Shown here: positions 20,893 to 37,534 of the stretch, one piece after another
Layout of the letters: each line of letters begins with the position of its first letter
Numbering within the stretch: the stretch's first letter is position 1
Source: Pseudoalteromonas xiamenensis
GTDB taxonomy: Bacteria; Pseudomonadota; Gammaproteobacteria; Enterobacterales; Alteromonadaceae
Assembly: GCF_030994125.1 (NCBI RefSeq)
Contig: NZ_CP099917.1
Location: forward strand, 3,084,001 to 3,148,000
Reading direction: 5' to 3'
DNA: 64,000 bases
Made by a program: the position numbers and the translations under genes
Notes under the pieces: model-generated
Seen by the model: only the letters and a program-made list of their open reading frames with translations
Databases searched by the model: none
Told to the model about the DNA's origin: nothing

Positions 20893-23025
20893 ATGGTTAG
20901 CAAAGATGATTTAGATATCGACGCTTTGGTAGCAGAAGTAGAAGCAAAACTAAATTCAATTGCAGAACAAAACCAAAATGAACAAGATTTCGCTCTGGAG
21001 GCGAATAATAGGTTTAACAAAAACCTAATAGCCCTTGAGAAGTATTTTCCCAAACTTGCTGATTCCGTAAAGGATTATCAACCTCGTGAAGACTTTAAAA
21101 TCGATGTGACGATTTCTAAGCATGGAAACTTTATTCCTAAAGACAGCCCTGTCCCTCTCTATGATAACGATCCTATAACACAAAGCCGTGAGCAGATTGA
21201 AAGATATACAAAGGATGCTCACTTTGGACGTACTGATTATTTTGCTACAGGCCCAGTTAGTCTAGATGATAGTTCCGAAAGTCGTATTCATATGAAACAT
21301 ATGGAAAAACTGTTTCAGCAACTCTGCGTAACGGACCCTGAACAACCTATCTTAAAAACACTTCCAGAAGTATTCCCGTCAGCTATGATTTTTGGAATCG
21401 GATTGGGCTATCACATCCCCTTACTTTTAGAAAAGCATTCGTTTGACTTTTTGTTTATTACAGAACCCGATTTTGAACTGTTTTTTGCGAGTCTTTTCTG
21501 TATTGAATGGGATAGAATTATATATGATATAGATGAAGCGGGTAAGTCGTTGTTTATTACGGTAGGTAGTAGCTACGAAGACTTCTTCACTGATTTATTT
21601 GCTTTAACGGCGGACGTTGGCGCGTTTTCAATAATCAACGCGTTTTGTTACCAACATTACCCTTCAATTGAACTGAATAAACTGATCAAAGCATTTTTCG
21701 CCAATTATTATCGATTTCATCAAGGGTACGGGTTTTATAATGATGCAATAACGGGGTTGTCTCATGCTATACATCACGTCAAAAAGCAGACTCCCTTTTT
21801 ATTTGCTAGCAATGAAGCGCGAAATTGGTTAGAAAATATTCCAGCATTTGTCGTTGGCAATGGTCCGTCTTTAGATGAGTCTCTAGAGTTTATTAGAGAA
21901 AATCAGGATAAAGCGGTTATATTTGCTTCTGGTACCGCTTTACAAACTTTATTAAGGGCTGATATTAAACCTGATTTTCACGTTTTAGTAGAACGTCCGA
22001 AAGATGCCTATGTTGCTCAACTACAGCTCAGTCCCGAAGGCGGTTATAAAGAAATCAACTTTTTAGGGGTAGACGTTCTCTATCCCGACCTAACTGATTT
22101 ATATGCATGGAGTGGTTTGGGATTAAAAGGGCCTGAAGCATCGTCTGTTTTTCTTAGGTTGCAAACTGGATTAAAAATGAAACGACTAGTTTCCATTTTG
22201 CAGGCTAGTGGTCCAATGGTATCTAATACCTCTTTCTCCTATGCCCTAACTATTGGTTTTAAGGAGATATATTTGTTTGGTGTCGATAATGGATTTGTCG
22301 ATTCAAATAAGACTCATGCATCGCATAGTGTGTATAGCGATGCAAAAAATAAAGATAAGTTTCCTGAAGTCAAAAGTTCTGGATTAACGTTGGAAGGTAA
22401 TTTTGGCGGTGAAATTCAGACGACATCTTTAATGAGTATGTCAAAAGCAAGTTTTGAGCTATTGACTAAACCATTGTCAAACGAATATGCCATTTATAAT
22501 GTTGGAGATGGTGCGAAAATCAACAAGGCGCTGCCTCTTCATGAGGACGACCTGTTGCCTTTGATGAATTCCATAGACAAACCTTCTTTAATTGAACGTA
22601 TTAAGTCGGAACTGTTTATGCCCCTTGAGTTGGGCGATATTGAAGCTTCATTAGGCATTGATGAGTTCGAAAGTGTGATAGATCATTTGATTGACATCGG
22701 TAATCGCCCTTATCAATCCAGGCAAGAGGCCACCGCAATTTTGATTGCTCAACAGCGACTTATTGAAGCTTACAAAAAGAGTAAGCAACCACAGATTTAC
22801 CATTTATTAAAAGGTACATTAATATATACCCACTGTCCGTTGATAACTGTTCTTTATTTTTATGATTCAGAAGTATATTGTTTGAAGAAATTCAAAATAT
22901 CGTTTGCTGTTTGGATGGATTTTCTTAAAGAAGTTCGAAATGACTTTCGTAAAAATTGGTATACCAAGTGTGATTGGGTGCATGAACTATTGCGCGAATA
23001 CGATTCCGACTCAAATAAAGAGTAA
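20893..23025 (+). CDS. maf: Maf-family flagellin nonulosonate transferase (motility accessory factor)
   Basis: Maf proteins attach pseudaminic or legionaminic acid to Ser/Thr of flagellin in the cytosol before export. The 710 aa product has the Maf central domain (MptE-like, DUF115; about 310-480), recognisable by AFVVGNGPSLDESLEFI and ASGTALQTLLRADIKPDFHV, and Maf-type N- and C-terminal helical regions. It is the first gene of the glycan island, immediately after the flagellin and chaperone genes and just upstream of nonulosonate synthesis genes, which supports flagellin as its acceptor and the CMP-sugar made here as its donor. Which nonulosonate it uses is not visible from the sequence. Confidence 0.9.
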   Translation: MVSKDDLDIDALVAEVEAKLNSIAEQNQNEQDFALEANNRFNKNLIALEKYFPKLADSVKDYQPREDFKIDVTISKHGNFIPKDSPVPLYDNDPITQSREQIERYTKDAHFGRTDYFATGPVSLDDSSESRIHMKHMEKLFQQLCVTDPEQPILKTLPEVFPSAMIFGIGLGYHIPLLLEKHSFDFLFITEPDFELFFASLFCIEWDRIIYDIDEAGKSLFITVGSSYEDFFTDLFALTADVGAFSIINAFCYQHYPSIELNKLIKAFFANYYRFHQGYGFYNDAITGLSHAIHHVKKQTPFLFASNEARNWLENIPAFVVGNGPSLDESLEFIRENQDKAVIFASGTALQTLLRADIKPDFHVLVERPKDAYVAQLQLSPEGGYKEINFLGVDVLYPDLTDLYAWSGLGLKGPEASSVFLRLQTGLKMKRLVSILQASGPMVSNTSFSYALTIGFKEIYLFGVDNGFVDSNKTHASHSVYSDAKNKDKFPEVKSSGLTLEGNFGGEIQTTSLMSMSKASFELLTKPLSNEYAIYNVGDGAKINKALPLHEDDLLPLMNSIDKPSLIERIKSELFMPLELGDIEASLGIDEFESVIDHLIDIGNRPYQSRQEATAILIAQQRLIEAYKKSKQPQIYHLLKGTLIYTHCPLITVLYFYDSEVYCLKKFKISFAVWMDFLKEVRNDFRKNWYTKCDWVHELLREYDSDSNKE

Positions 23026-23031
23026 AATAAG

Positions 23032-24218
23032 ATGAGTGAGTTACTTTCCATTTTAGGTAGAAGCCGAGCTTTGTTTACAGAGGACATTCTGGAACGTGAG
23101 CAATATTTAATGGAAGTAGTTAGTAGTTCCCGCTTCTTAGTTTTAGGGGGAGCCGGTACGATTGGACAGGCTGTTACTAAAGAGATTTTTCATCGAAATC
23201 CAATTTGTCTACATGTTGTAGATTTATCTGAAAACAATCTGGTGGAGCTTGTTAGAGATATACGTTCGTCAGTTGGATATATTTCAGGCGACTTTAGGAC
23301 ATTTACCCTAGATATAGGTTCGCTTGAGTTTGAAGCATTAATGCGAGATGTCGGTCATTATGATTTTGTGCTAAATCTTTCAGCATTGAAACATGTTAGA
23401 AATGAAAAAGATCCATATACATTAATGCGAATGATTTACACTAATATATTCTATACAGTACAGGCTCACCGTCAAGCGGTCTCTTTGAATGCAAGAAAGT
23501 ACTTTAGTGTTTCTACGGACAAAGCTGCTAATCCTGTAAATATGATGGGGGCATCCAAGCGAATAATGGAACTTTTCCTCATGCGGGAAAGTTGTAATTT
23601 AGATGTGTCTATGGCTCGATTCGCAAATGTTGCGTTTAGTGATGGATCTTTGCTTTATGGATTCGACATGAGACTCAAAAAAAGCAGCCAATTGCAGCCC
23701 CTTCTGACATTCAGCGTTTCTTTGTCACGGAACAAGAATCCGGTCAACTGTGCCTATTATCATGTCTATTTGGTAGTAATTTGGATATCTATTTCCCTAA
23801 AGTCAAAGGTGAATTGAGACTACAAACACTTTCAGATGTTGCAAAGCGATATTTAGAATCAAGGGATTTAGAAGTATTACTTTGTGAAAATGAGGAGGAA
23901 GCAAGAGCCGTAATGAAAAATGCGCCCAAAGGCAAATGGCCATGTGTGTTTTCTCGTTCCAATACGTCTGGCGAGAAAGAATTCGAAGAGTTTTTTACTG
24001 ATTCAGAAGTGTTAGATCTGGATACGTTTAATCATATAGGCGTGATAAAGCAATCGCTCGAATTCAATCCAGATCTTCTGGAAATTTTTGAAAAAGATAT
24101 TTTGAAATTACGTCAAAATAAGTCGTGGACTAAAAGGCAATTGATCGATGCCTTTGAGCGACTGTTACCTGAATTTGCTCATATCGAAAAGCTGCGTTCG
24201 TTAGAAGAAAAAATGTAA
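23032..24218 (+). pseudogene. legB: LegB-type UDP/GDP-sugar 4,6-dehydratase, interrupted by a frameshift at an A7 run
   Basis: Two overlapping frames together encode one dehydratase of about 395 aa, the first enzyme of legionaminic-type synthesis. The first part (23032-23817) has the NAD-binding loop GGAGTIG (about 39-45) and the MGASKR active-site motif (the usual YxxxK Tyr is Met in this family). After 23683 the frame drifts into unrelated sequence and stops at 23817. The other frame, read from 23679, continues KKQPIAAPSDIQRFF... and then runs through 24218 as the normal C-terminal half. One extra A in the run 23677-23683 would restore GF-x7-QP spacing as in intact relatives. It may be a true mutation, a phase-variable tract, a slippage site or a sequencing error. 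It overlaps legC by one base (TAATG). Confidence 0.85.
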
Positions 24219-25366
24219 TGAATATTGTCACAGAGCTCATAGAGTTTATACGAGAACAATATAGTTCAAGCGAATTTATACCTCTACATCAGCCTTACTT
24301 TTCGCAGAGGGAAAAAGACTATGTTATTAAGACGATAGAATCAACATTTGTATCTAGCGTTGGTCAATATGTAGATCTTTTTGAGCAAAATATTGAAAGC
24401 TACTCAGGGTGCGCAAAGGCCGTAGCGACAGTAAATGGGACATCAGCCTTACTATGTGCGCTATACGCTGCTGGAATCGAACGGAATGATGTAGTTATAA
24501 CTCAAGCTCTAACATTCGTTGCGACTTGCAATGCAATTGTACAGTTAGGTGCAGCCCCCGCATTCGTAGATGTTTCAGCAAATACCTTAGGGCTGAGTCC
24601 TGATGCTCTCCAAGAATTCTTAATTGAAAATGCATATTTGGATGGAGAACATAAATGTCGGCTCAAGAAAACAAAGCAAGTTGTTAGAGCCGTAGTGCCA
24701 ATGCATACATTCGGTCATCCTGTTGAAATAGATAGAATTAGTCAAATTTGTCGGTCATGGAATATCGCGTTAGTTGAAGATGCAGCAGAAAGTTTAGGAT
24801 CCTTCTATAAAGGTAAACACACAGGAACATTTGGTGATTACGGTGCTGTGAGCTTTAATGGAAACAAAATCATTACCACAGGAGGTGGAGGCGCAATCTT
24901 ATGTCAGTCTAAAGATACCGGTAAAAGGATTAAACACTTAACAACAACAGCAAAAGTTCAGCATCAATATGAATACTATCATGATGAAATAGGCTTCAAT
25001 TTTAGATTACCAAATATCAATGCTGCTCTTGGGTGTGCTCAGATGGAAAAAATTGAGATGATTCTTTTAAATAAGAGAGAGTTAGCGAATGAATATCGGC
25101 AGTTTTTTAGCAAATCAGAGTACAAATTTGTAAATGAGCCACTTAACTGTAGATCTAACTATTGGTTGAATGCAATTATATGTCCAGACGAGTCATCAAA
25201 AAAGTATTTGTTGGAAACTACGAACCAACACAATGTCATGACTCGGCCGATTTGGACATTGATGAACGAGTTGCCTATGTTTAGTAGTTGCATGTGTGGG
25301 AGATTAAGTGTCAGCCAATGGTTGGCCAAACATGTTGTTAACTTGCCTAGTTCAGTCAGAATGTAG
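24218..25366 (+). CDS. legC: LegC-type PLP-dependent sugar aminotransferase
   Basis: This DegT/DnrJ/EryC1-family enzyme would aminate C4 of the 4-keto sugar made by LegB, using glutamate and pyridoxal phosphate. At 382 aa it is full length. The PLP lysine is K217 in SFNGNKIITTGGGG, and the cofactor-binding Asp is D188 in VEDAAES. The N-terminal FIREQY...FIPLHQPYF and the ending VVNLPSSVRM are typical of the LegC subfamily. Its ATG overlaps the legB stop by one base, so LegC translation may depend on ribosomes finishing legB, which matters given the legB frameshift. Confidence 0.87.
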   Translation: MNIVTELIEFIREQYSSSEFIPLHQPYFSQREKDYVIKTIESTFVSSVGQYVDLFEQNIESYSGCAKAVATVNGTSALLCALYAAGIERNDVVITQALTFVATCNAIVQLGAAPAFVDVSANTLGLSPDALQEFLIENAYLDGEHKCRLKKTKQVVRAVVPMHTFGHPVEIDRISQICRSWNIALVEDAAESLGSFYKGKHTGTFGDYGAVSFNGNKIITTGGGGAILCQSKDTGKRIKHLTTTAKVQHQYEYYHDEIGFNFRLPNINAALGCAQMEKIEMILLNKRELANEYRQFFSKSEYKFVNEPLNCRSNYWLNAIICPDESSKKYLLETTNQHNVMTRPIWTLMNELPMFSSCMCGRLSVSQWLAKHVVNLPSSVRM

Positions 25367-25662: not shown

Positions 25663-26856
25663 ATGACCGTACAAGTTGATTCGAGACCAAAGATAATGTT
25701 GGTTACAACATCTAGAGCTGAATTTGGCCTGTTTTATTGGCTTATAAAGGCACTACAGGACTCTACTTTATTTAATTTTCAATTGATTGTCACGGGAAAT
25801 CACCTTTCGGTAGAGCAAGGATACACGCTTAAAGAAATCGAGCAAGAAGGAATTAAAATAACAGAAATAGTTGAAATTATGTTTTCTGGTGTTTCAGATA
25901 CAGCTAAAACGAAATCATCAGCCCATGGTATGCTAAGTTTTGCAGATGTATTTTCTCGACATCGCCCTGATTTATTAATCATTATGGGTGATCGCTATGA
26001 ATTGCTTGGTATAGCTTCTGCTGCAGCTCTTATGTCTGTACCAATAGCTCACTTTTCAGGTGGTGAAATTACACAGGGTGTGATTGATGATGTAATCCGA
26101 CATACAATAACCAAACTATCTCATTTTCACTTCGTATCAAACAAAAAGCACGCACAAAGAGTTCGGCAACTAGGAGAAGCGCCAGACCGAATTTTTAACG
26201 TTGGTGAGCCGGGACTAGAGCATTTAAAAAAAACCCCGATGATGAACATTTCCGAATTGAGCCAAAGTATTGGATTCGAGTTAAGCGAATCTTTCGCGCT
26301 CTTTACTTTCCATCCGGTCGTGCAAGAACTAGGCTTGACTCCAGAAATGCAATTATCACGAATATTAGATGTTCTTGAAACTGAGAGTAAACTTCAATAT
26401 TTGATTACATTTCCTAATTTTGACATTGGTGGAGAGGTACTTCTTGAACAACTGAAAGCGTTTGAAGAAAGAAACAGAGATAGGGTTAAACTTGTGTCCT
26501 CTTTAGGTTTCAGACGTTATTTGTCGGCTCTTCATTTGTGTAAACTTGTCATTGGAAACTCTTCCAGTGGATTAGTTGAAGCTCCTTGTTTTGGAAAAGT
26601 AACTTTGAATATCGGTTCTCGGCAATCTGGGAGATTAAAAGGACGTAATGTTATTGACTGCGGATTTGATCCTCGAGAAATAAGAATAAAGCTTAAACTG
26701 GCAATGAACGATGATTATCAAGAAATTGCAAAAACTGCCGAAAACCCTTATGGAGACGGGAATACGGTAAGCAAAGTTGTCAATGTTTTGAGGAATACCA
26801 AATTCCCCATTGAAGGTATAAAAAGGTTTCATGACCTCGAGGATAAAGATGAATAA
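25663..26856 (+). CDS. legG: NeuC/LegG-type hydrolysing NDP-sugar 2-epimerase
   Basis: The enzyme epimerises C2 of an NDP-activated 2-acetamido sugar and releases the free 6-carbon sugar that is then condensed by the NeuB/LegI enzyme. The 397 aa protein has the NeuC N terminus (MLVTTSRAEFGLFYWLI), the MGDRYE motif (about 108-113), AHFSGGE, and the NSSSGLVEAP segment near residue 305, all characteristic of the family. In a LegB-LegC pathway the substrate would be the 2,4-diamino-trideoxy sugar. Its stop overlaps the first codons of legI. Confidence 0.87.
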   Translation: MTVQVDSRPKIMLVTTSRAEFGLFYWLIKALQDSTLFNFQLIVTGNHLSVEQGYTLKEIEQEGIKITEIVEIMFSGVSDTAKTKSSAHGMLSFADVFSRHRPDLLIIMGDRYELLGIASAAALMSVPIAHFSGGEITQGVIDDVIRHTITKLSHFHFVSNKKHAQRVRQLGEAPDRIFNVGEPGLEHLKKTPMMNISELSQSIGFELSESFALFTFHPVVQELGLTPEMQLSRILDVLETESKLQYLITFPNFDIGGEVLLEQLKAFEERNRDRVKLVSSLGFRRYLSALHLCKLVIGNSSSGLVEAPCFGKVTLNIGSRQSGRLKGRNVIDCGFDPREIRIKLKLAMNDDYQEIAKTAENPYGDGNTVSKVVNVLRNTKFPIEGIKRFHDLEDKDE

Positions 26857-27865
26857 AACCCTAATTATTGCAGAAGCTGGTGTTAATCATAATGGTAGCT
26901 TTGATATGGCGAAACAGTTAGTTGATATCGCGGCTCAAAGCGGTGCTGATTATATTAAGTTCCAAATTTTCAAATCGGAATCTGTGATATGCAAAACAGC
27001 GGAAAAGGCTCAGTACCAGAAGGAAACCACAGGCCAGTCAGAGTCTCAGTTAGAGATGGTGAAAAAGTTAGAGCTTTCATTTGAACAACATAGACAACTG
27101 AAGGCCTATTGCTCTCATAAAAATATTAAATATTTATGTACACCATTTGATTTGGAAAGCTTAGCATTTTTACTTGAGCTCGGTTTAGACACCATAAAAA
27201 TCCCATCAGGTGAAATTACAAACTATTTCTTATTAGATGAAATCGCGAAACATGAGATTAATGTTATTTTGTCGACAGGGATGTCTACTCTTGACGAAAT
27301 AAAGCAAGCCATTAATCTTTTAAATCAACATGGTAGAATTTCGAATCTTACAGTTTTACATTGTAACACTCAGTACCCAACCCCGTTTGGAGACGTCAAT
27401 TTGGCGGCGCTCAGTCTATTACACGAAGAGTTGTTATGCGATATAGGATACTCTGACCATACTGCTGGTACGGAAGTTGCGGTTGCTGCGGTGGCACTCG
27501 GTGCAAAAATAATTGAGAAGCACTTTACATTATCTCGCTTACTGCCAGGACCTGACCACCAAGCGTCTCTAGAACCTGAAGAATTGTCAAGAATGGTTAA
27601 AGAAATTCGACATATTGAATTAGCTCTCGGCTCTAAAACTAAAAAAGTTACTCAAAGTGAAGCCGATAATATTGATATAGCAAGAAAGTTCTTGGTAGCT
27701 GCTCGTGATATAAAAGCTGGCACTGTGTTTTGTATAGAAGACTTCGTCGCAAAACGGACTGGTGTGGGTGGTATAAATCCGATGCATGTCTTCGAGGTAA
27801 TAGGAAAAGTTGCAAAAAATAGCTATCTTGCGGATCAGCCAATTTCTTTAAGGGAGGTTGATTAG
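26849..27865 (+). CDS. legI: NeuB/LegI-type nonulosonic acid synthase
   Basis: Condenses phosphoenolpyruvate with a 6-carbon amino sugar to give the 9-carbon nonulosonate. The 338 aa product has the NeuB barrel start (IIAEAGVNHNGSFDMAKQLVD), IKFQ, KIPSGEITN, the LHCNTQYPTP motif, GYSDHTAG, and a C-terminal SAF/antifreeze-like domain (about 280-338, with ARDIKAGT). The frame opens at 26831, but the ATG at 26849 follows GAGGA by 5 bases and gives the normal N terminus. The subfamily (sialate, legionaminate or pseudaminate) is assigned from its LegB/LegC/NeuC partners. Confidence 0.87.
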   Translation: MNKTLIIAEAGVNHNGSFDMAKQLVDIAAQSGADYIKFQIFKSESVICKTAEKAQYQKETTGQSESQLEMVKKLELSFEQHRQLKAYCSHKNIKYLCTPFDLESLAFLLELGLDTIKIPSGEITNYFLLDEIAKHEINVILSTGMSTLDEIKQAINLLNQHGRISNLTVLHCNTQYPTPFGDVNLAALSLLHEELLCDIGYSDHTAGTEVAVAAVALGAKIIEKHFTLSRLLPGPDHQASLEPEELSRMVKEIRHIELALGSKTKKVTQSEADNIDIARKFLVAARDIKAGTVFCIEDFVAKRTGVGGINPMHVFEVIGKVAKNSYLADQPISLREVD

Positions 27866-27868
27866 TAC

Positions 27869-28828
27869 ATGGCTATTTTTGGTGGCGAGCTAACATCTCC
27901 ATTTCGACACAGTGAACTGTTTGCCTCAGGTCGAAGTTCGTTGAGAAGAATAATAGAAATCTTAGGTTCCACACCAAGAATATTAATTCCCAATTATGTG
28001 TGTCCAGTAGTTTTTAACGAGTTTGAGAAAACGCATGCTCAAATACAACTATACTCCGTTTCAAATGATTTTGAGATAGATTTGAATGGTATTGATTTTG
28101 AAAAGTTCGATTGTCTTTATGTAGTTCACTATTTCGGGAAATTGACGAACCTTCCTATAGGTTTGCCAAATAACCTTTTGATTATTCATGATTGTGTTTT
28201 CCTTCCTAGCGTTGATGAAGCATTTCATGACTCGTCGAATAAGCAGATTGGTTTTAATAGTTTTAGGAAAATATTTCCTTGTGCTGAAGGTAGTGTTTTG
28301 GTTTCTAACTTTACTTATCCTCAGATTAACGATGTGATTTTTAATAGGCAAAATGAATTTAGTAAGCACAAGATGACCGGGCTAAGGTTAAAACAGAGGT
28401 ACATTGAAAGTAAATCTCACGATATTGTGCTCGAACATGAGTACTTGGATCATTTGCTTTTAGGAGAAAAAATAATAGATAAGAGTACTGAAATCGAAAC
28501 AACAACAGATGGGTTTGCACTGAATGTTTCAAAAAGCTTAGGAAAAAGTATACATGGACTCATTGAACGACTTAATCGACTAGAAGTAGTTGCAAGTTAT
28601 TCCCAAAACAGAAGCTTCAAACCTAGCTTTGCTTGTTTTTATCCTATACAGATAAATAGCCACGCGTATGACCAAATCAAAAAGGAGCTGGTAAAAGAAT
28701 CGATTTACTTACCATATTTTTGGCCGATTAGCGATGAACTGAAACTAAAAGGATTGGTAGAAAAAACTGACCACCTTTTCATTCCGCTTGCACCAGAAAA
28801 CAACAAAAAAAATTTTTTCAAATGCTAG
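27869..28828 (+). CDS. Divergent DegT/DnrJ-like (PLP-fold) protein, function unknown
   Basis: A 319 aa protein whose layout resembles a compact DegT/DnrJ/EryC1 aminotransferase: GRSSLRRIIEIL near the start, IPNYVCPVVF (about 43-52), HYFG, IHDC (in place of the usual ED-C/A), and NSFRKIFPCAEGSVLV (about 128-143), which aligns with the lysine loop. The Lys here is only two residues after SF, not four, and the protein is about 60 residues shorter than LegC. It may be a different subfamily or a non-catalytic relative. It lies 3 bases after legI, so it belongs to the same unit and probably acts in nonulosonate modification. Confidence 0.5.
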   Translation: MAIFGGELTSPFRHSELFASGRSSLRRIIEILGSTPRILIPNYVCPVVFNEFEKTHAQIQLYSVSNDFEIDLNGIDFEKFDCLYVVHYFGKLTNLPIGLPNNLLIIHDCVFLPSVDEAFHDSSNKQIGFNSFRKIFPCAEGSVLVSNFTYPQINDVIFNRQNEFSKHKMTGLRLKQRYIESKSHDIVLEHEYLDHLLLGEKIIDKSTEIETTTDGFALNVSKSLGKSIHGLIERLNRLEVVASYSQNRSFKPSFACFYPIQINSHAYDQIKKELVKESIYLPYFWPISDELKLKGLVEKTDHLFIPLAPENNKKNFFKC

Positions 28829-28843
28829 AGATCATTAAGAGCC

Positions 28844-29833
28844 ATGTTTATTGATTTAGTCAGCGCAAAAAATTGGTTTGATCGTTTGCCCGCTAGGTAT
28901 AGATATCCAACTTTAGACCCAGAATATATTTATATTGAGTCAAAACAAAGAAAGCTAAGGCAATCAGTGTTTTACCTGAAAGAGCATGCGGGCCAATTCT
29001 ATTATCTTAGTGGATATCTTACTAAATCAAAAGAAGGTTTTATCGATTTTGAAACACCTAGAGGGTATGGTGGATTATTGTCCAATATATCAAATTTAGA
29101 ATTGCTTAAAAACTATCAAAGTGAATGTGAACATGCTTTTTTAAGTAAGGGGGTGTTGTGTGGGTTCATTCGCAACACGCCGTTACTAAACAATTATAAT
29201 GCTTTGTTAGTCGAGAGCTGGTTTGATCGCTATACAGTTTCAATCGATTTAAACATACCAGATTTATTACCTTCATATAAAACCAGAGCTCGTACCGCTA
29301 TTCGAAAAGCATTGAAAAGTGGGGTATTAGTAAAGCGAGCTGAGAGTGATGAACAGTGGCAATCATTTGCACTACTCTATAGTCAGCGTATGAAGGAACT
29401 GGGCGCAACTGATGAATATTTGTATGATAATTCTTATTTTCACGACATATCTAAACTAATTGGCTCTAAGCTTTACCTCGCTTATCTGCATGACGAACTG
29501 GTAAGTGGTTGTATTATTTTGGAATCGGGAAGTTACGCGGAATATCATCTTTCAGCTTCAACTAAGATAGGCATGGTATATGCAAGTACTCAGGCATGTA
29601 TTCATATTGCGGCTACCGAAAGTCAAAAAAATGGAGTTCAGTTTATGCATCTAGGAGGTGGCCTTAGCAATAGTGATGAAGATGCTTTGATGTTTTTCAA
29701 GAGCGGCTTTTCGGATCGGAAGCATGATTTTGTTATCACAGGGTGGATATTCGATACTTCAAAATATGCAGATTTGAAAAGAAAATATGTACAACAGGGT
29801 AAAGCGGTTAATCGAATTATTTTCTACAGGTGA
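28844..29833 (+). CDS. FemAB/GNAT-type acyltransferase-like protein
   Basis: A 329 aa protein with a C-terminal acetyltransferase-like domain (about 140-300) of the FemAB/GNAT fold: the R-R-rich helix RARTAIRKALKSG, the segment LVSGCIILESGSYAEYHLSAS, and the late motif HLGGGLSN...FFKSGFS, as in FemX/FemAB-like proteins. The cluster otherwise lacks a LegH/PseH-type N-acetyltransferase, and this is the only acyltransferase-like gene in it, so it may acylate an amino group of the nonulosonate. That role is inference. It ends in a 3-base overlap region with the following methyltransferase ribosome binding site. Confidence 0.6.
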   Translation: MFIDLVSAKNWFDRLPARYRYPTLDPEYIYIESKQRKLRQSVFYLKEHAGQFYYLSGYLTKSKEGFIDFETPRGYGGLLSNISNLELLKNYQSECEHAFLSKGVLCGFIRNTPLLNNYNALLVESWFDRYTVSIDLNIPDLLPSYKTRARTAIRKALKSGVLVKRAESDEQWQSFALLYSQRMKELGATDEYLYDNSYFHDISKLIGSKLYLAYLHDELVSGCIILESGSYAEYHLSASTKIGMVYASTQACIHIAATESQKNGVQFMHLGGGLSNSDEDALMFFKSGFSDRKHDFVITGWIFDTSKYADLKRKYVQQGKAVNRIIFYR

Positions 29834-29838
29834 AAACT

Positions 29839-30498
29839 ATGGCATGGGATAGTACATGGGAAGATGTTTTTACATCGCAAGAATGGGGAAAGTATCCAGG
29901 CGAAGACGTGATACGATTTATTGCAAGGAATTTCTACCACGTTGCAGAGCGTAAAGATATAAAGATATTGGAGGTCGGTAGTGGGACTGGAGCTAACCTT
30001 TGGTTTATAGCAAGAGAAGGGTTCAGCGTGTTCGCAATCGAAGGTTCACCGACCGCAGTCAATAAAGCAATTCAGCGTCTAGATCTTGAGGTACCTGAGT
30101 GGGTCGGAGAAATTCGATGCGGTGATTTCACGAAATTACCTTATAGCGATTGTTCTTTTGATGCAGTAATAGATGTAGAGGCTATAACGCATAATCCTTT
30201 TGACGACGCTGTTAATATATATTCGGAAATTCATCGAGTTCTGAAACCTAGAGGAAAACTATATTCGCGTACATTTGCTAAAGGAACGCTCGGAGATGAA
30301 ACTGGTAAAGTGCTCAGCCACAATTGCTACTTGCCAGAAGTCGGTCCTATTGCAGGTAAGGGGTTAACACGTTTTACTGATGAGAGTGAGATCCCTGCAT
30401 TGTTAAAACTGTTCTCGAAAATTGATTTTGGTGATATTAGCAGGACGGAAAATAAGCAGCTAATTACCAAAGAATGGTGTATTACAGCGACGAAATAA
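29839..30498 (+). CDS. Class I SAM-dependent methyltransferase
   Basis: A 219 aa methyltransferase with the SAM motif ILEVGSGTGANLWFIAREG (about 41-59) and the later acidic/hydrophobic motif SFDAVIDVEAITHNP. A GTG at 29830 would extend it by three codons, but the ATG at 29839 follows AGGTGA by 5 bases and is preferred. Its position inside the nonulosonate cluster suggests O- or N-methylation of the flagellin sugar, a known type of modification, but the substrate cannot be told from the sequence. Confidence 0.75.
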   Translation: MAWDSTWEDVFTSQEWGKYPGEDVIRFIARNFYHVAERKDIKILEVGSGTGANLWFIAREGFSVFAIEGSPTAVNKAIQRLDLEVPEWVGEIRCGDFTKLPYSDCSFDAVIDVEAITHNPFDDAVNIYSEIHRVLKPRGKLYSRTFAKGTLGDETGKVLSHNCYLPEVGPIAGKGLTRFTDESEIPALLKLFSKIDFGDISRTENKQLITKEWCITATK

Positions 30499-30509
30499 AG
30501 GGGTGTCTC

Positions 30510-31553
30510 ATGAAAGCAGCTTGGCAAAATTCAATATTATCTGTACCCGCAACTATGCAGGAAGCAATTGATGCATTGAACAATTCAAGTTATAAATTAG
30601 TTTGTTTAGTTGACTTTCAAGGAATTCTCAAAGGGGTTATTACAGACGGTGATATTCGAAGAGCGATAGTCGCTGGTAAGACAATTAATACCCCAGTCGA
30701 TGACTTTATGTGCAGTACACCGATTACATTTACTGTAAAGACAACTGCATATCAAAAGAGACGACTGTTTAATCAACATAAACTGCTCTATATTCCTGTT
30801 ATTAATGAAACTGGTCAAGTCGTCGATATTGAAATTTCAACTTCAGGCGGTATTCAAGAAAAGACAAATACAGTATTCTTGATGGCTGGAGGATTTGGAA
30901 CTCGTCTACGTCCATTAACTGAACAATGCCCCAAACCTCTTTTGAAAGTTGGCACCAAGCCGATTTTAGAAACTATTATCGAAAGTTTTTCAAATTCAGG
31001 TTTCCAAAACTTTACCATTTCGGTTCACTATCTGGCTGACCAAATTAAGACCCATTTTAAAGATGGTCAAGATTTTGGCGTTAATTTAAATTACATTGAA
31101 GAGTCAAGCCCCTTAGGTACGGGGGGCGCTTTGAGTCTATTACCTAAGCAGAATGAAGCAGTAATATTAATGAATGGTGACTTGCTAACTAAAGTCGATT
31201 TTAGAGAATTGTTGAGCTATCACGAGTCAGAAAACGCTAAAATTACTATGTGTGTTAGAGAGTATGAATTTCAAGTGCCGTATGGTGTGATCAATTCTGT
31301 AGAAAATAAAGTCACCTCTATCGTAGAGAAACCAATTGAAAAATATTTTGTAAACGCAGGTATTTACGTTATATCGCCAGATGTCATTAATCGACTAATA
31401 CAAGGGCAACCTATAGATATGCCAGACCTAATAAATAATTGTTTGAAAAAAGATGAAAAGGTGACACTTTTTCCAATACATGAATATTGGCTTGATATAG
31501 GAAGAATGGCAGATTTCGAACGCGCTCAACTCGACTTCATTCAAAATTTCTAG
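30510..31553 (+). CDS. ptmE: PtmE-like sugar-1-phosphate nucleotidyltransferase with CBS domains
   Basis: The 347 aa protein joins a CBS-domain pair (about 1-112) to a nucleotidyltransferase domain (about 120-345) with the nucleotide-binding loop AGGFGTRLRPLTEQCPKPLL, the MNGDLL metal site and the NAGIY segment. In Campylobacter the same fusion, PtmE, makes GDP-glucosamine for legionaminic acid, so this gene suggests a GDP- rather than UDP-linked start of the pathway. A frame opens at 30474, overlapping the methyltransferase, but the ATG at 30510 follows AAGGGG by 6 bases and fits the family. Confidence 0.8.
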   Translation: MKAAWQNSILSVPATMQEAIDALNNSSYKLVCLVDFQGILKGVITDGDIRRAIVAGKTINTPVDDFMCSTPITFTVKTTAYQKRRLFNQHKLLYIPVINETGQVVDIEISTSGGIQEKTNTVFLMAGGFGTRLRPLTEQCPKPLLKVGTKPILETIIESFSNSGFQNFTISVHYLADQIKTHFKDGQDFGVNLNYIEESSPLGTGGALSLLPKQNEAVILMNGDLLTKVDFRELLSYHESENAKITMCVREYEFQVPYGVINSVENKVTSIVEKPIEKYFVNAGIYVISPDVINRLIQGQPIDMPDLINNCLKKDEKVTLFPIHEYWLDIGRMADFERAQLDFIQNF

Positions 31554-31561
31554 GACTGTTA

Positions 31562-32539
31562 GTGAATATTTTAGTCTTTGGATATGGCAATATAGCAATT
31601 CGACATATCAGAAATTTACTTGAACTGACACAAGTCAAGCATATCGATATTGTAAGAGCAACTTTAGCCCCGATTTTAGAAGATTTTAAAGTAACGACTT
31701 CAGTTTTTAGTGATGTTCATAGTGTAATAGATTCTAAAAAATTTCATCTTGCATTGATTTGTTCTCCAACTACTTTTCATTTTGAACATTTAGAAATGTG
31801 TTTTAAACGAAATATCCCATGTTTAGTTGAAAAACCTATTTCGCTAACAGAAAAACAGAGTTGTAAACTATTAAAGTTACATAGAGAAAACCCAGTACCT
31901 GTGCTTCTTGGATATGATATTCGATTTACAAAGGGCTATGCCAAAATTTCATCAATTCTTCGAGAACAGCAAGTAGGTGAAATTTGGAAGCTTATGGTCC
32001 AAGTCGGACAGTATTTACCTAGCTGGAGAACTGGAAAGGATTATCGTAAATCTGTCTCTGCGCAAAAAAGTCTTGGTGGTGGAGTTTTACGTGAATTAAG
32101 TCACGAAATTGATTATTTAATCGGTTTGTTTGAAATTCAACCCGAACAGATGTTCAGTATATTGATCAATAATAATTTATTGGATATGGACTGTGAAAAT
32201 TATGCACAGATTATTGGAAATGCGAAAATTGCAGGCCAAAATTCAACCTGCGGATTTTATATATCTCTTGATATGCTTTCTTATATTCCAAAACGTAAGC
32301 TGTTAATTCAAAGTGATAAATTGGATATTGAATGGGATTTACTTGCGCAGTCTATCCTAGTAAGTGATGGTCGATTGCAGTCAACGATTTCAGTTGAAGA
32401 AAGTACAAATCAGCCTTATGTGAATATGATGCAGCTTTTTCTATCTAAAATCGAAAAAAGTGATCTCTCAAATCATGCCTTGGAACAAGGAAATGCGGTG
32501 ATGCAATTCATTGAGGAAATTGAACGTGGTCATATGTAA
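31562..32539 (+). CDS. Gfo/Idh/MocA-family oxidoreductase
   Basis: A 325 aa NAD(P)-dependent sugar oxidoreductase-like protein. The N-terminal Rossmann fold starts with ILVFGYGNIAIRHIRNL (about 3-19), and the EKP motif (LVEKPIS, about 97-103) that marks the catalytic region of the family is present, as is a later HE pair (LSHEIDYLI). The start is GTG, 5 bases after AGGAC. Its neighbours (ptmE-like, legF, ptmA-like) match the Campylobacter ptm cluster, where such genes supply or modify the amino-sugar precursor. The exact reaction is not visible. Confidence 0.78.
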   Translation: MNILVFGYGNIAIRHIRNLLELTQVKHIDIVRATLAPILEDFKVTTSVFSDVHSVIDSKKFHLALICSPTTFHFEHLEMCFKRNIPCLVEKPISLTEKQSCKLLKLHRENPVPVLLGYDIRFTKGYAKISSILREQQVGEIWKLMVQVGQYLPSWRTGKDYRKSVSAQKSLGGGVLRELSHEIDYLIGLFEIQPEQMFSILINNNLLDMDCENYAQIIGNAKIAGQNSTCGFYISLDMLSYIPKRKLLIQSDKLDIEWDLLAQSILVSDGRLQSTISVEESTNQPYVNMMQLFLSKIEKSDLSNHALEQGNAVMQFIEEIERGHM

Positions 32540-33254
32540 AAATAAAAAGATCTTTGCACTTGTTTTTGCTAGAGGTGGTTCTAAAGGATTGCCCGGAAAA
32601 AATATTAAAGAACTTAATGGAAAGCCCTTACTTGCGTATAGCATAGAACTTGCGAAAAAAATTCCGAATGTATGTCATGTGTTTGTTTCGACAGATGATG
32701 AAAAAATAGCAAAAGTTGCACTTCAATATGGCGCATGTGTAATAGACAGACCTGCCGAATTAGCTAGTGACACAGCCAGTGAATGGGATGCATGGCAACA
32801 CGCAGTTCAATATTTGAAAAAACATTATGATATGCATGATAATGATGAATTCTTGAGTTTGCCATGCACTTCTCCGCTGAGAGAATTTCAAGATATTATC
32901 GAATTAATTAGGGTTTTTGAAAATCAAAAGCCCGATTTGGCATTGTGTATCACCGATGCGAATCGAAGCCCTTATTTTAATATGGTGAAGCTAAATCAAG
33001 CGCATTGTTTGGAGCTTGTTTGTGATGCTGGTTCATTTGTACGTAGGCAAGATGTACCAAAAACATATGATGTAACGACTGTTGGCTATATAACCACTGC
33101 AAAATTCATTGAATGTGGTACGGGGGTGTTATCTGGTAACACCACAGGAGCAATCGTTCCGCGTGAAAATGCTGTTGATATTGACACCGAATTTGACTTC
33201 AATTTTGCAAATTTCCTAATTAGTCAGCGTAAGGTAAACAATGAAAACTTTTAG
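32526..33254 (+). CDS. legF: CMP-nonulosonate (legionaminate) cytidylyltransferase, LegF/NeuA type
   Basis: Activates the finished nonulosonate with CTP to the CMP-sugar used by Maf. The 242 aa protein has the CMP-sialate synthetase N terminus (FALVFARGGSKGLPGKNIKELNGKPLLAY), the VSTDDEKIA segment, LPCTSPLR, and DIDTEFDF near the C terminus, which are family hallmarks. The frame is open from 32511, but GTG at 32526 has GAGGA 8 bases before it. It overlaps the preceding gene by 14 bases and the following ptmA-like gene by 14 bases. Confidence 0.87.
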   Translation: MVICKNKKIFALVFARGGSKGLPGKNIKELNGKPLLAYSIELAKKIPNVCHVFVSTDDEKIAKVALQYGACVIDRPAELASDTASEWDAWQHAVQYLKKHYDMHDNDEFLSLPCTSPLREFQDIIELIRVFENQKPDLALCITDANRSPYFNMVKLNQAHCLELVCDAGSFVRRQDVPKTYDVTTVGYITTAKFIECGTGVLSGNTTGAIVPRENAVDIDTEFDFNFANFLISQRKVNNENF

Positions 33255-34053
33255 AGAATTACAAGACCTAACCGGAACTTGGGCTGTCATTACAGGCGGT
33301 GCTGGGTATGTAGGAAAAGCTGCAGCAGAAACCATCATAGAATTGGGTGGTAATGTAATATTGTTAGATAATGACATGGAAAAATTGAAAGTTGCGCAAA
33401 CGGAAATTGTATCTGCAAAATCAAGTAATACTTTTTTGGTTTGTTGTGATTTGTCAAAAGACAAGCAAATTGAAATGGCGATTTCAGAAATTGCAATGAT
33501 TACTGAAGGAAAAGTCAATATTCTAATTAACAATGCGGCTTTTGTAGGGACAAGTGACCTTGAAGGCTGGTGTGTCCCGTTTCAAGAACAATCTATATCC
33601 ACATTCCGCGCATGTCTAGATGTAAACTTGACTGCTCCGTTTGTTATCAGTCAAAAAGTTTGTGCTTTGATGGATAACTTCCAACACCCTTTAAAATCGA
33701 TTATCAATATTTCTTCGATTTATGGAGTAGTGGGACCGCAAATGGATTTATACGCAGGCACTAATATGGGGAACCCTGCAGCCTATGCAGCTAGCAAAGC
33801 TGGTTTGATGCAAATGACAAGATGGATGGCCGCCGTGGTCAGTCCTAAAATTAGAGTGAACAGTATCGTTTTAGGTGGTATAGAAAGAGGTCAACCAACA
33901 GAATTCCAACAAAGGTACAACAGTAAAGTACCACTTCAAAGAATGGCAACGGAAGAGGATTTGAAAGGGGCTATAGGTTATTTATCAAGCCAGCTATCAA
34001 ACTACATGACCGGTCAAACTTTGAGTGTCGACGGAGGGTGGACTATAGTTTAG
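33241..34053 (+). CDS. ptmA: PtmA-like short-chain dehydrogenase
   Basis: A 270 aa classical short-chain dehydrogenase. It has the cofactor loop VITGGAGYVGKAAAE (about 16-30), the NNA motif (INNAAF), the catalytic Ser in INISSIYGVVG and the YAASK active-site motif (about 181-185). PtmA of Campylobacter, encoded beside legF and ptmE, is a similar enzyme needed for legionaminic acid on flagellin. It is the last gene of the island proper and is followed by a small hairpin before the divergent flagellin. Confidence 0.78.
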   Translation: MKTFRELQDLTGTWAVITGGAGYVGKAAAETIIELGGNVILLDNDMEKLKVAQTEIVSAKSSNTFLVCCDLSKDKQIEMAISEIAMITEGKVNILINNAAFVGTSDLEGWCVPFQEQSISTFRACLDVNLTAPFVISQKVCALMDNFQHPLKSIINISSIYGVVGPQMDLYAGTNMGNPAAYAASKAGLMQMTRWMAAVVSPKIRVNSIVLGGIERGQPTEFQQRYNSKVPLQRMATEEDLKGAIGYLSSQLSNYMTGQTLSVDGGWTIV

Positions 34054-34172: not shown

Positions 34173-34949
34173 ATGAAAATTCAAAATAGTAACCCGGTAT
34201 TTGATACCTCGTTGACGAACAAATTAGATAAACAGATCAGTTCAGGAAAAAGAGTCAATTCTGCAGCTGATGATAACTCAGCATTGCAAATCATAAACCG
34301 TATGAATTCGAAGCAGGAAGGCTACAACCAAGCAGTGAGAAATGCCTATGATGGTATTTCGTTAACTCAAACGGCTGATTCCGCGTTGCAAGGCGTTGGT
34401 GATGCGGTTGAGAGAATTAGAGAGTTGTCAATTCAAGCTGGGAATGGTGTATTGACTGATAGTGATAGGTTAGCGCTTCAAGATGAGGTAGCTCAGTTGC
34501 AATCTCAAATATCAGAAACATTTGAAAATACTACTTTCGGTGGTACTAAATTATTTTCAGGTCAAACTTCAAGTTTCCAAATTGGTGCGGAAGCAGGGAG
34601 TTCTAAGTCAGCAGTTTTTACTAATGGAAGCTTCGCTAATGGTATTATGAATGTTGATATTTCAACACAAACTGGAGCCCAAGCTGCAATAGACTCAGTT
34701 GATGATATAAAAGATAGTATAAGTAATGAACGAGCAAAATTTGGTGCTTTTGAAAATACTCTAAGCTCAACAATTAGAGCATTAGGTACTCAAGCTGAGA
34801 ACGTGGAAGCGAGTAAAAGTCGTATATCAGATACGGATTATGCCAGAGTAATTTCTGATAGAGTATCAAATGATATTTTGCAAAAAGCTAAGGTGGCTAT
34901 TAACGCCCAAGCAAGCAAGGCATCTACAAACGTTTTAAATTTGTTGTAG
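34173..34949 (+). CDS. Short divergent flagellin (truncated N-terminal helix)
   Basis: A 258 aa flagellin-like protein. The conserved D1 motifs are clear (ISSGKRVNSAADDNSALQII, AVRNAYDGISLTQTADSALQ) and so is the C-terminal region (SKSRISDTDYARV, ending ASTNVLNLL). Compared with the three main flagellins it lacks about 10-15 residues of the N-terminal D0 helix and nearly all of the central segment. The start is ATG 34173, 5 bases after GAGAGGT; a GTG one codon earlier is less likely. It may be a minor filament component or a specialised flagellin-like protein. It stands apart from the tandem array, between the glycan island and a sulfotransferase gene. Confidence 0.85.
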   Translation: MKIQNSNPVFDTSLTNKLDKQISSGKRVNSAADDNSALQIINRMNSKQEGYNQAVRNAYDGISLTQTADSALQGVGDAVERIRELSIQAGNGVLTDSDRLALQDEVAQLQSQISETFENTTFGGTKLFSGQTSSFQIGAEAGSSKSAVFTNGSFANGIMNVDISTQTGAQAAIDSVDDIKDSISNERAKFGAFENTLSSTIRALGTQAENVEASKSRISDTDYARVISDRVSNDILQKAKVAINAQASKASTNVLNLL

Positions 34950-35040
34950 AAGCGTCCCTGAGTTTTCGTAAGTTGATAGAATTTCTCAGGAAGAATCTGA
35001 CTTGGTGTTAGTCAAAATTTGAATTGAAATGGGAGTACCT

Positions 35041-35931
35041 ATGTTCCAATCGCTTGTATCTGAAAATAGCGATGGTTTGAAAATCTATTTAAATCATTTA
35101 AATGCAAAAAAAGACTCTACACCGGTATTTTTTTATCACGTAGAAAAATCAGGTGGAATTACTTTTTCGAATACACTAGGTTTCTCTCTGCAAAGCAAGA
35201 ATATGCATGCATATAGAATTGACATTGATGAGGAGTTGGAAAGGCTTAAAATTCATGCGCCTAAGTTATCCCTTATTTCGACCCATAGTAAATTCGGTGT
35301 TCATTCAGAGTTAAACCTAACCAAATTGAGACTCGTTACTTTTTTACGAGAACCGTTTGCTAGAGTACTTTCAGATTATACTTATACTTGTATGCGAGCA
35401 TCAGAAAAGCCATCTTTAGAAGGTTTTGGCAAGCATTTCAGACAGCCTCGTTTACATAATTTGATGACTAAACAGTTATGTCCTTTAGAATACTTCGAGG
35501 GAGCTTCAACTCAGGCTTTTGAAAACTTAAAAGCGAATTTTTTTGCATTCGGTACGTCAGCACATATCGATGCAATGTTGGATTTACTAATCACTCAGTT
35601 CGATTTACCTAATGTACTAACAGCAAGACTAAATACGACTACGCCTAAATATAAATTGGTAGCTGACGAATTCAAAGAGGAAGTTTTAGAGTTAAACTCT
35701 GATGACGCTAAACTATTTGAATTAGTTACAAAACAACCACGTATTCCAACTCTCGAATTACCTAATGAGTTTGTAGTTGATGAAAGCACGATTCTTCTTC
35801 ACGAGTTTGAAAAGGAAACCAAATCATTAACATCGGCAAAAATGTATCCGACTAGTGCTGTGTATGAAGCTTTCAGTAGAGCGAAAGCATCAGGTGTAAA
35901 ATTGAGTATAGAGATGTTGATGGGAAAATAA
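35041..35931 (+). CDS. PAPS-dependent sulfotransferase family protein
   Basis: A 296 aa soluble protein with both signatures of the heparan-type sulfotransferase family: the 5'-phosphosulfate loop FFYHVEKSGGITF (about 30-42, compare HxPKTGG) and the 3'-phosphate motif TFLREPFARVLSDYTY (about 100-115), in which Arg and Ser contact PAPS. An upstream ATG (35029) lacks a ribosome binding site; ATG 35041 follows GGAG by 5 bases. Located between a flagellin and the flagellar master regulator, it could sulfate the flagellin glycan or a cell-surface polysaccharide. The acceptor is unknown. Confidence 0.8.
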   Translation: MFQSLVSENSDGLKIYLNHLNAKKDSTPVFFYHVEKSGGITFSNTLGFSLQSKNMHAYRIDIDEELERLKIHAPKLSLISTHSKFGVHSELNLTKLRLVTFLREPFARVLSDYTYTCMRASEKPSLEGFGKHFRQPRLHNLMTKQLCPLEYFEGASTQAFENLKANFFAFGTSAHIDAMLDLLITQFDLPNVLTARLNTTTPKYKLVADEFKEEVLELNSDDAKLFELVTKQPRIPTLELPNEFVVDESTILLHEFEKETKSLTSAKMYPTSAVYEAFSRAKASGVKLSIEMLMGK

Positions 35932-36034: not shown

Positions 36035-36079
36035 CGTATTTAATAAAAAGTTACAAATATCATTTGTGGTTTGTTAAAG

Positions 36080-37534
36080 ATGATTTTGATAATAGATAAT
36101 AATAACAATCGAGCTTCCGGTCTGTGTGCTTCCCTTACCTTTGTTGGGGAAAAAGTGCAGTTGGTTGAAGAAAATGCATCTTTGCCACACGTGAAAGATG
36201 ATCAGGATGGCACCATCGTCATTCTTGGTGCGCTTAATCGTGTCGATCATGAACAGTTAATCAAATCGAATCCTGCGGTTCCGTTTTTACTGATTGGTGA
36301 AACGCTGCGACCTCTTCTAAGCTTACCCAACGTTATTGGTTTAATGGCTGAGCCATTTAGCCATGAAGTTACCAACCAACTTTTGCATGATTGCCAGCAG
36401 TACGTTCGTCTAATGCCTGGCAAAGCAGATAAAAGTAACGCTAAAGCATTTGATGGATTAGTGGGTGAAACGCCAGCCGTGCAGAATGTACGTTTCTTGA
36501 TTGAACAGGTCTCTAAGACTGATGCAAACGTACTTATTCTAGGTGAATCAGGAACAGGTAAAGAAGTGGTTGCCCGTAACGTACATTTATTGTCACGTCG
36601 TCGAGAAGGACCATTTGTTCCAGTAAACTGTGGTGCTATTCCTGGTGAGCTTTTAGAAAGTGAATTATTCGGTCATGAGAAAGGAGCCTTCACAGGGGCA
36701 ATTTCGGCTCGAAAAGGGCGGTTTGAATTGGCCCAAGGTGGTACGTTATTTCTAGATGAAATTGGTGATATGCCGTTGCAAATGCAAGTTAAGTTATTAC
36801 GCGTATTGCAAGAGCGAAGCTACGAGCGAGTTGGCGGTACAAAATCAATTCAGGCCGATGTTCGTGTTATTGCAGCGACACATCGTAATCTGGAAGACAT
36901 GATTGAAAGCGGAAAATTCCGTGAAGACTTGTATTATCGACTCAATGTTTTTCCTATTGAAAATCCATCCTTATCTGAACGTGCAGACGACATTCCATTA
37001 CTTTTGAAAGAGTTGATAAGACGCGTTAGCGAAATGAGTGGTACAAGCGTCAAGTTTACTGAGCGCGCCGTCGAGAGTTTAAAAATCCACACCTGGCCTG
37101 GCAACATTCGCGAATTGTCGAACTTAGTTGAACGTATGGTGATTATGTTCCCTGATAAAGTGGTTGATGTATCTGACTTACCTCGGAAATATCAGCATAT
37201 TGAAGTGGAAGCATTTGAGCCGGAATATCCTGAAGAATTGCTTGAGCGAAATGCCTTCATCGATCTATTCAGTGATGGGTTTAGTGATTATGATGTAGAT
37301 TCAGTGGATGTGGATGAAGTTGAAGCATCCTCTGCAATCGGCGGTTACCCTGCAGATATGCTACCTGATGAAGGGATTGATCTTAAAGAGTATTTAGCCG
37401 ATTTAGAAATTAGTCTTATCACGCAAGCGCTTGAGAGATACGACTATGTTGTAGCGAGAGCCGCTGAAATTCTAGGGGTTCGCAGAACAACCCTCGTTGA
37501 AAAAATGAAAAAATATAACTTGGGAAGAGATTAA
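36080..37534 (+). CDS. flrA: Flagellar master regulator FlrA (sigma-54 activator)
   Basis: FlrA (FleQ) activates the first sigma-54 flagellar promoters, including that of flrBC. The 484 aa protein has an N-terminal receiver-like domain that lacks the usual phospho-acceptor surroundings (as in FlrA/FleQ), an AAA+ domain (about 130-365) with Walker A GESGTGKE, the sigma-54 contact GAFTGA, and [10 protein letters not shown], and a C-terminal Fis-type helix-turn-helix (about 440-484). ATG 36080 is preferred over TTG 36071. It is separated from flrBC by the minus-strand tag gene, whereas flrABC are adjacent in Vibrio. Confidence 0.95.

Follow-up and report, generated by a model that had tools for sequence, protein, structure and literature searches.

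Does a sulfotransferase gene that lies between a flagellin gene and the regulator gene flrA serve the flagellum? The gene in question encodes a 296 aa protein and is carried by Pseudoalteromonas xiamenensis in a 64,000 nt stretch of DNA (the window; bases 3084001–3148000 of contig 1, 3.68 Mb, in a two-contig genome of 4.6 Mb). Upstream of it are three full-length flagellins (337–338 aa), a Maf glycosyltransferase gene and a nonulosonate island of the NeuC/NeuB type. The reading we favour, with a probability of about 0.5, is that the protein is a soluble, cytosolic carbohydrate O-sulfotransferase dependent on 3′-phosphoadenosine 5′-phosphosulfate (PAPS), that the flagellin glycosylation island has recruited and that would sulfate a legionaminic-type glycan before flagellin is exported. 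The association with the island is supported because the only other full-length relative in the genus closes a Maf/leg gene row, in Pseudoalteromonas tunicata.

The sulfotransferase and its relatives

The initial annotation described a 296 aa protein at 35041 with both PAPS-binding signatures, and the open reading frame, the start and the two motifs (HVEKSGG, residues 33–39, and FLREPFARVLSDY, residues 101–113) were all confirmed. The start is a sensible one since GGGAG lies immediately 5′ of the ATG. The PAPS site was checked by profile and by structure prediction. Pfam Sulfotransfer_2 (PF03567) matches the protein over residues 26–127 only (25 bits, cut-off 22, E 2.4e-5), and the predicted structure shows the sulfotransferase fold, which is shared by heparan sulfate 2-O-sulfotransferase (HS2ST; PDB 3f5f, 4ndz) and 6-O-sulfotransferase (5t03, 5t05). 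The NCBIfam profiles gave no match, and a single-sequence search of PDB gave no significant relative (best E 0.41). Residues Y32, H33, K36, G38 and G39 of the PAPS loop, and R103, P105, R108 and S111 of the 3′-phosphate motif, are invariant in all six aligned family members. The same is true of H82 and H88, either of which may be the counterpart of the catalytic His142 of HS2ST. Unlike the heparan sulfate enzymes, to which it is 14–20% identical, the window protein is bacterial and has no membrane-type hydrophobic stretch (maximum 19-residue Kyte-Doolittle value 1.23). Profile and predicted fold together support a PAPS-type sulfotransferase, for which transfer of sulfate from PAPS is predicted.

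Close relatives are few. When 5.77 billion proteins were searched by a word-based method, the protein retrieved nothing but itself; a two-row profile of the protein collection added four relatives (P0002 to P0005, P0003 being encoded on a contig of 13.9 kb), and a six-row profile one more, a weak one. A scan of an 84,980-species genome collection gave a single relative, in Teredinibacter sp. ISS155. Matches were present in 21 of 394 genomes of the order and 14 of 369 of the class (both sets being samples of larger groups and including the own genome), and besides the own gene these were distant and partial. Within the reach of these searches, the protein appears to belong to a rare subfamily. 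A phage origin was considered and rejected, as none of 73 candidate stretches from a scan of viral contigs was confirmed as a relative. Among 108 genomes of the genus, own included, the one other full-length member is that of P. tunicata, which was also seen among 147 relatives. The remaining genus matches of the two-row profile (G061, G017, G025, G163, G088 and G080; E 2.5e-9 to 7.4e-4) were set aside: they are partial, and each is either distant from flrA along its contig or located on a different one. One further match, from the single-sequence search (G031, E 9e-4), sits in a polysaccharide-type cluster and was likewise not accepted.

Gene order before flrA in the window and in P. tunicata

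The gene had been placed after a divergent flagellin and between the glycosylation island and flrA, and this arrangement was confirmed: the short flagellin and sulfotransferase genes stand between the Leg-type nonulosonate island (25663–34053) and flrA (36071). The neighbouring flagellin had been called truncated. It is indeed short, at 258 aa against the 337–338 aa of the three main flagellins, and is without the N-terminal start of their D0, but it is not damaged: the same short form is common before flrA in the genus (at least 200 bits in 70 of 103 fetched loci), which rules out a broken gene. From the end of the short flagellin to flrA there are 1133 bases in the window, compared with 148–372 bases in all 36 relative loci (31 genomes, five of which occur twice, comprising the best-scoring loci plus others; all 37 loci, window included, were measured). 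Gaps of this size leave no room for a sulfotransferase. In the window, a conserved pre-flrA segment follows directly 3′ of the sulfotransferase, which places the gene after the flagellin stop and ahead of that segment. The short flagellin is common in the genus; the sulfotransferase has been added at this junction. A dedicated pair of sulfotransferase and short flagellin, as first suggested, is rejected on these 36 loci. Simple sigma54 and sigma28 patterns occurred in 2 and 0, respectively, of 45 regions upstream of short flagellins, and neither was found upstream of the sulfotransferase. Promoter-like sites (8, versus 6.9 in shuffles) and terminator-like sites (2, versus 1.3) were at about the shuffle level.

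The P. tunicata protein (genome G068) is identical to P0002, a 'Sulfotransferase family 2 domain-containing protein'. Its gene is the last of a Maf-led row and begins 17 bases after a short-chain dehydrogenase (SDR) gene on the same strand. The order of the row is Maf, a 449 aa protein, epimerase-like, DegT, NeuC, NeuB, a 319 aa-type protein, FemAB, methyltransferase, CBS-nucleotidyltransferase, Gfo, cytidylyltransferase, SDR and sulfotransferase; the 449 aa and epimerase-like proteins were labelled by eye, and the NeuB frame spans the border of two sequence stretches. Past the sulfotransferase come FliS in the opposite orientation, a flagellin whose insert looks protease-like by eye, a 251 aa flagellin and flrA. 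The 251 aa flagellin is 35% identical to the short flagellin of the window and lies about 3 kb from the sulfotransferase. The insert-bearing flagellin (L004 9780–11612) has a HExxH-like motif, HEMVH, which we take as a likeness to flagellinolysin.

Both sulfotransferases belong to one family, and each closes an island of the same kind. In P. tunicata the gene directly follows the SDR gene, whereas in the window the short flagellin intervenes, making the P. tunicata locus the cleaner gene order. Identities between the two islands are 60% for SDR, 61% for CBS-nucleotidyltransferase, 61% for the methyltransferase, 42% for FemAB, 37% for Gfo and 34% for the 319 aa protein.

The flagellin glycosylation island and sulfotransferases of the genus

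Features from the Maf gene to flrA are collected in Table 1. Maf adjoins flagellin genes in the window and in P. tunicata. The nonulosonate synthase is of the NeuB type, scoring 453 bits with the NeuB/NnaB model against 256 with PseI. The DegT/DnrJ aminotransferase, the CBS-nucleotidyltransferase and the SDR are presumably LegC-like, PtmE-like and PtmA-like, respectively. The closest island type is the leg/ptm-type legionaminic acid flagellin glycosylation of Campylobacter, with Maf. Shared with it are NeuC-, NeuB-, cytidylyltransferase-, CBS-nucleotidyltransferase-, Gfo- and SDR-type genes and Maf; the window adds FemAB, the methyltransferase, the 319 aa protein and the sulfotransferase, and its LegB-type gene is split. 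Among the loci searched, relatives of the 319 aa protein were found only in the islands of P. tunicata and G001.

Table 1. Genes from Maf to flrA, in window positions
Feature	Position	Strand	Basis or remark
Maf-type flagellin glycosyltransferase	20893..23025	+	Maf_flag10_N, MptE-like
LegB-type sugar-nucleotide dehydratase	23032..24218	+	two overlapping frames, 23032-23817 and 23781-24218
DegT/DnrJ-family aminotransferase	24218..25366	+	profile match
NeuC-type UDP-GlcNAc 2-epimerase	25663..26856	+	TIGR03568
NeuB-type nonulosonate synthase	26831..27865	+	TIGR03569
319 aa island protein	27869..28828	+	no Pfam match
FemAB-family protein	28844..29833	+	profile match
S-adenosylmethionine (SAM) methyltransferase	29830..30498	+	profile match
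CBS plus nucleotidyltransferase	30474..31553	+	profile match
Gfo/Idh/MocA oxidoreductase	31562..32539	+	profile match
CMP-nonulosonate-type cytidylyltransferase	32541..33254	+	130 bits with the PseF model, under the cut-off of 205.7
Short-chain dehydrogenase (SDR)	33241..34053	+	counterpart adjoins sulfotransferase in P. tunicata
Short flagellin, 258 aa	34173..34949	+	Flagellin_N and Flagellin_C match 34173-34946
Sulfotransfer_2 gene, 296 aa	35041-35928	+	profile match, fold prediction; inside open reading frame 35029-35931
flrA	36071..37534	+	FleQ domain, sigma54-type activator

The pathway to the CMP-sugar is represented by NeuC, NeuB, DegT and the cytidylyltransferase, together with the split LegB-type gene. 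One LegB frame corresponds to relatives as far as their residue 222–251 and the other from 250–281 onward, and in the relatives the gene is a single frame of about 395–425 codons between stops. Either a true frame break or a fault of the assembly could account for the split. The own genome has seven further Polysacc_synt_2 matches, including a 341 aa frame at 1586218.

Across the 108 genus genomes, Sulfotransfer_2 gave 46 listed matches (to E 0.1) in 31 genomes, over the cut-off in 26. Matches within 20 kb upstream of flrA were found in four genomes, those of the window (G000) and P. tunicata, G024 and G033, which is a minimum if all sulfotransferase families are considered, since Sulfotransfer_2 was counted and Sulfotransfer_1 left out. 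The upstream stretches extend 20 kb, apart from L097, L106, L125 and L132, which end at contig ends, so that some islands are covered in part; G003, G011, G075 and G164 were left out of the locus set. The expected number, 0.19 against the four seen, assumes random placement, which is untrue of glycan genes, and was given no weight. Sulfotransfer_3 matches occur in 107 of the 108 genomes; the strongest are listed, and they were not used for the island counts.

The sulfotransferase-like genes of G024 and G033 (60.2 and 36.4 bits with Sulfotransfer_2) are inside pse islands. Their proteins are unmatched by the window-family profile at E 10 and are weakly alike (20–21 bits). Enzymes of the sulfotransferase fold thus entered flagellar glycan islands of the genus more than once, yet they remain exceptions and are not a regular part of the Maf/nonulosonate flagellin island. 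The flagellar pse island of G024 (Sulfotransfer_2 gene at L066 3450–4349) also holds transketolase-like halves, identified by eye. In the G033 island (L067 2121–7344), APS-kinase-like, PPDK-like, glutamine amidotransferase and nucleotidyltransferase genes accompany the sulfotransferase-like gene; we take this set to resemble the Campylobacter phosphoramidate (MeOPN) genes, which would be unexpected in a flagellin island.

Role of the sulfotransferase

For the activity, acceptor and timing of the enzyme, and for the flagellin glycan as its target, the following scheme is proposed. The own genome encodes an adenosine 5′-phosphosulfate (APS) kinase, which would form PAPS as the sulfate donor. Maf glycosylates flagellin in the cytoplasm ahead of export. 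Given this, and the lack of a membrane stretch, the enzyme could add sulfate either to the free CMP-sugar or to the sugar once Maf has attached it to flagellin, and the sulfated flagellin would then be exported. An acidic sugar would be in keeping with the likeness to uronate 2-O-sulfotransferases, although a shared fold shows no acceptor. A comparable role is described (PMC11980604) for Agl30 and Agl31 of Halobacterium salinarum, sulfotransferases for the N-glycan of the S-layer protein and archaellins: acidic sugars are sulfated in the glycan of a motility filament, and one of the enzymes is cytosolic. That system is an archaeal N-glycan, and its likeness to the window protein is one of proposed role. 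In a literature search mostly outside subscription journals, the excerpts of the matches listed (PMC6094399 included) held no report of sulfated bacterial flagellin, nor of a sulfotransferase within a flagellin island of the nonulosonate type; the portions of PMC10483923 found report sulfation and nonulosonates in sludge matrix and name no sulfated nonulosonate.

Several observations weigh against a role in the flagellar glycan. The sulfotransferases of the window and P. tunicata are 29% identical over 228 residues, compared with about 60% for the SDR and CBS-nucleotidyltransferase proteins; since they diverge more than these shared neighbours, separate acquisition is possible, and fast change and separate gain may both fit. 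Six genus members have NeuC/SDR-type islands (window, P. tunicata, G045, G001, G040 and G158), and four of these are without the sulfotransferase, two carrying the window family. The Teredinibacter relative scores 17.3 bits with Sulfotransfer_2, under the Pfam cut-off, and no flagellar or nonulosonate cluster was recognisable in the 20.8 kb inspected around it. Nor did flanks of about 1.5 kb at 33 more distant loci match the flagellin, nonulosonate or Maf proteins of the window. No promoter was assignable to the sulfotransferase from the sigma54/sigma28 patterns and shuffle comparison, the sugar may not be made via the split LegB-type gene in this strain, and the own genome has three Sulfotransfer_3 matches besides.

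The enzyme might instead sulfate a surface polysaccharide (capsule, O-antigen or exopolysaccharide), the flagellar location being incidental or due to shared use of nonulosonates. This is doubtful. In its favour, 42 of the 46 listed Sulfotransfer_2 matches lie elsewhere than near flrA; the genes of G031 and G037 are among polysaccharide-type genes by eye (that of G054 is among central-metabolism genes), and none of the flagellar or nonulosonate proteins of the window had a counterpart at four loci (G017, G037, G035, G054) whose draft contigs might conceal a link to flrA. Homologues are, however, not confined to capsule-type clusters, as the P. tunicata relative ends a Maf-led row inside the flagellar cluster. 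The own surface-polysaccharide region has a sulfotransferase-like gene of its own, a weak one (L226 11294–12184; 14.7 bits, below cut-off), a point that counts both against this alternative and against the favoured reading. That the gene is cargo, inserted or decaying and landed by chance between short flagellin and flrA, is unlikely: the insertion is clean relative to the 36 loci, the G+C is low (35.2%, versus 41.9% for the window, 42.3% for flrA and 37.8% for the short flagellin) and the single-sequence protein search returned only the protein itself, but the frame is open with every invariant motif residue kept, a second genome has a family member closing an island of this kind, and the G+C of the leg island is almost as low (37.3%).

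Sulfation of tyrosine in flagellin itself, possibly in the adjoining short flagellin with its three Tyr, is very unlikely, as the nearest folds are polysaccharide sulfotransferases, the 36 other loci have no room beside the short flagellin and the P. tunicata gene is not beside one. Least likely of all is an enzyme that moves a non-sulfate group from a 3′-phosphonucleotide donor, or one whose substrate is a small metabolite; the phosphoramidate-type neighbours in G033 would suggest it, but no such set was seen among the window island proteins scanned and the G033 protein is unmatched by the window-family profile.

The sulfotransferase type (profile, fold) and the island association (P. tunicata) originally proposed stand, and the enzyme family and its tie to a flagellar sugar island are real in two genomes; a sulfated flagellin glycan is plausible. 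More tentatively, and at a little under an even chance, this bacterial flagellum may carry a nonulosonate (legionaminic-type) glycan O-sulfated by a dedicated enzyme, the trait having been gained several times in Pseudoalteromonas as different Sulfotransfer_2 subfamilies entered flagellar glycan islands. Sulfated motility filaments are documented in haloarchaea (PMC11980604, and a 1985 paper cited there). On the filament of a marine bacterium, a sulfated nonulosonate would place a strong negative charge that does not depend on pH. It could alter the binding of phages, the way in which host animals or algae recognise the filament, and bundling in sea water.
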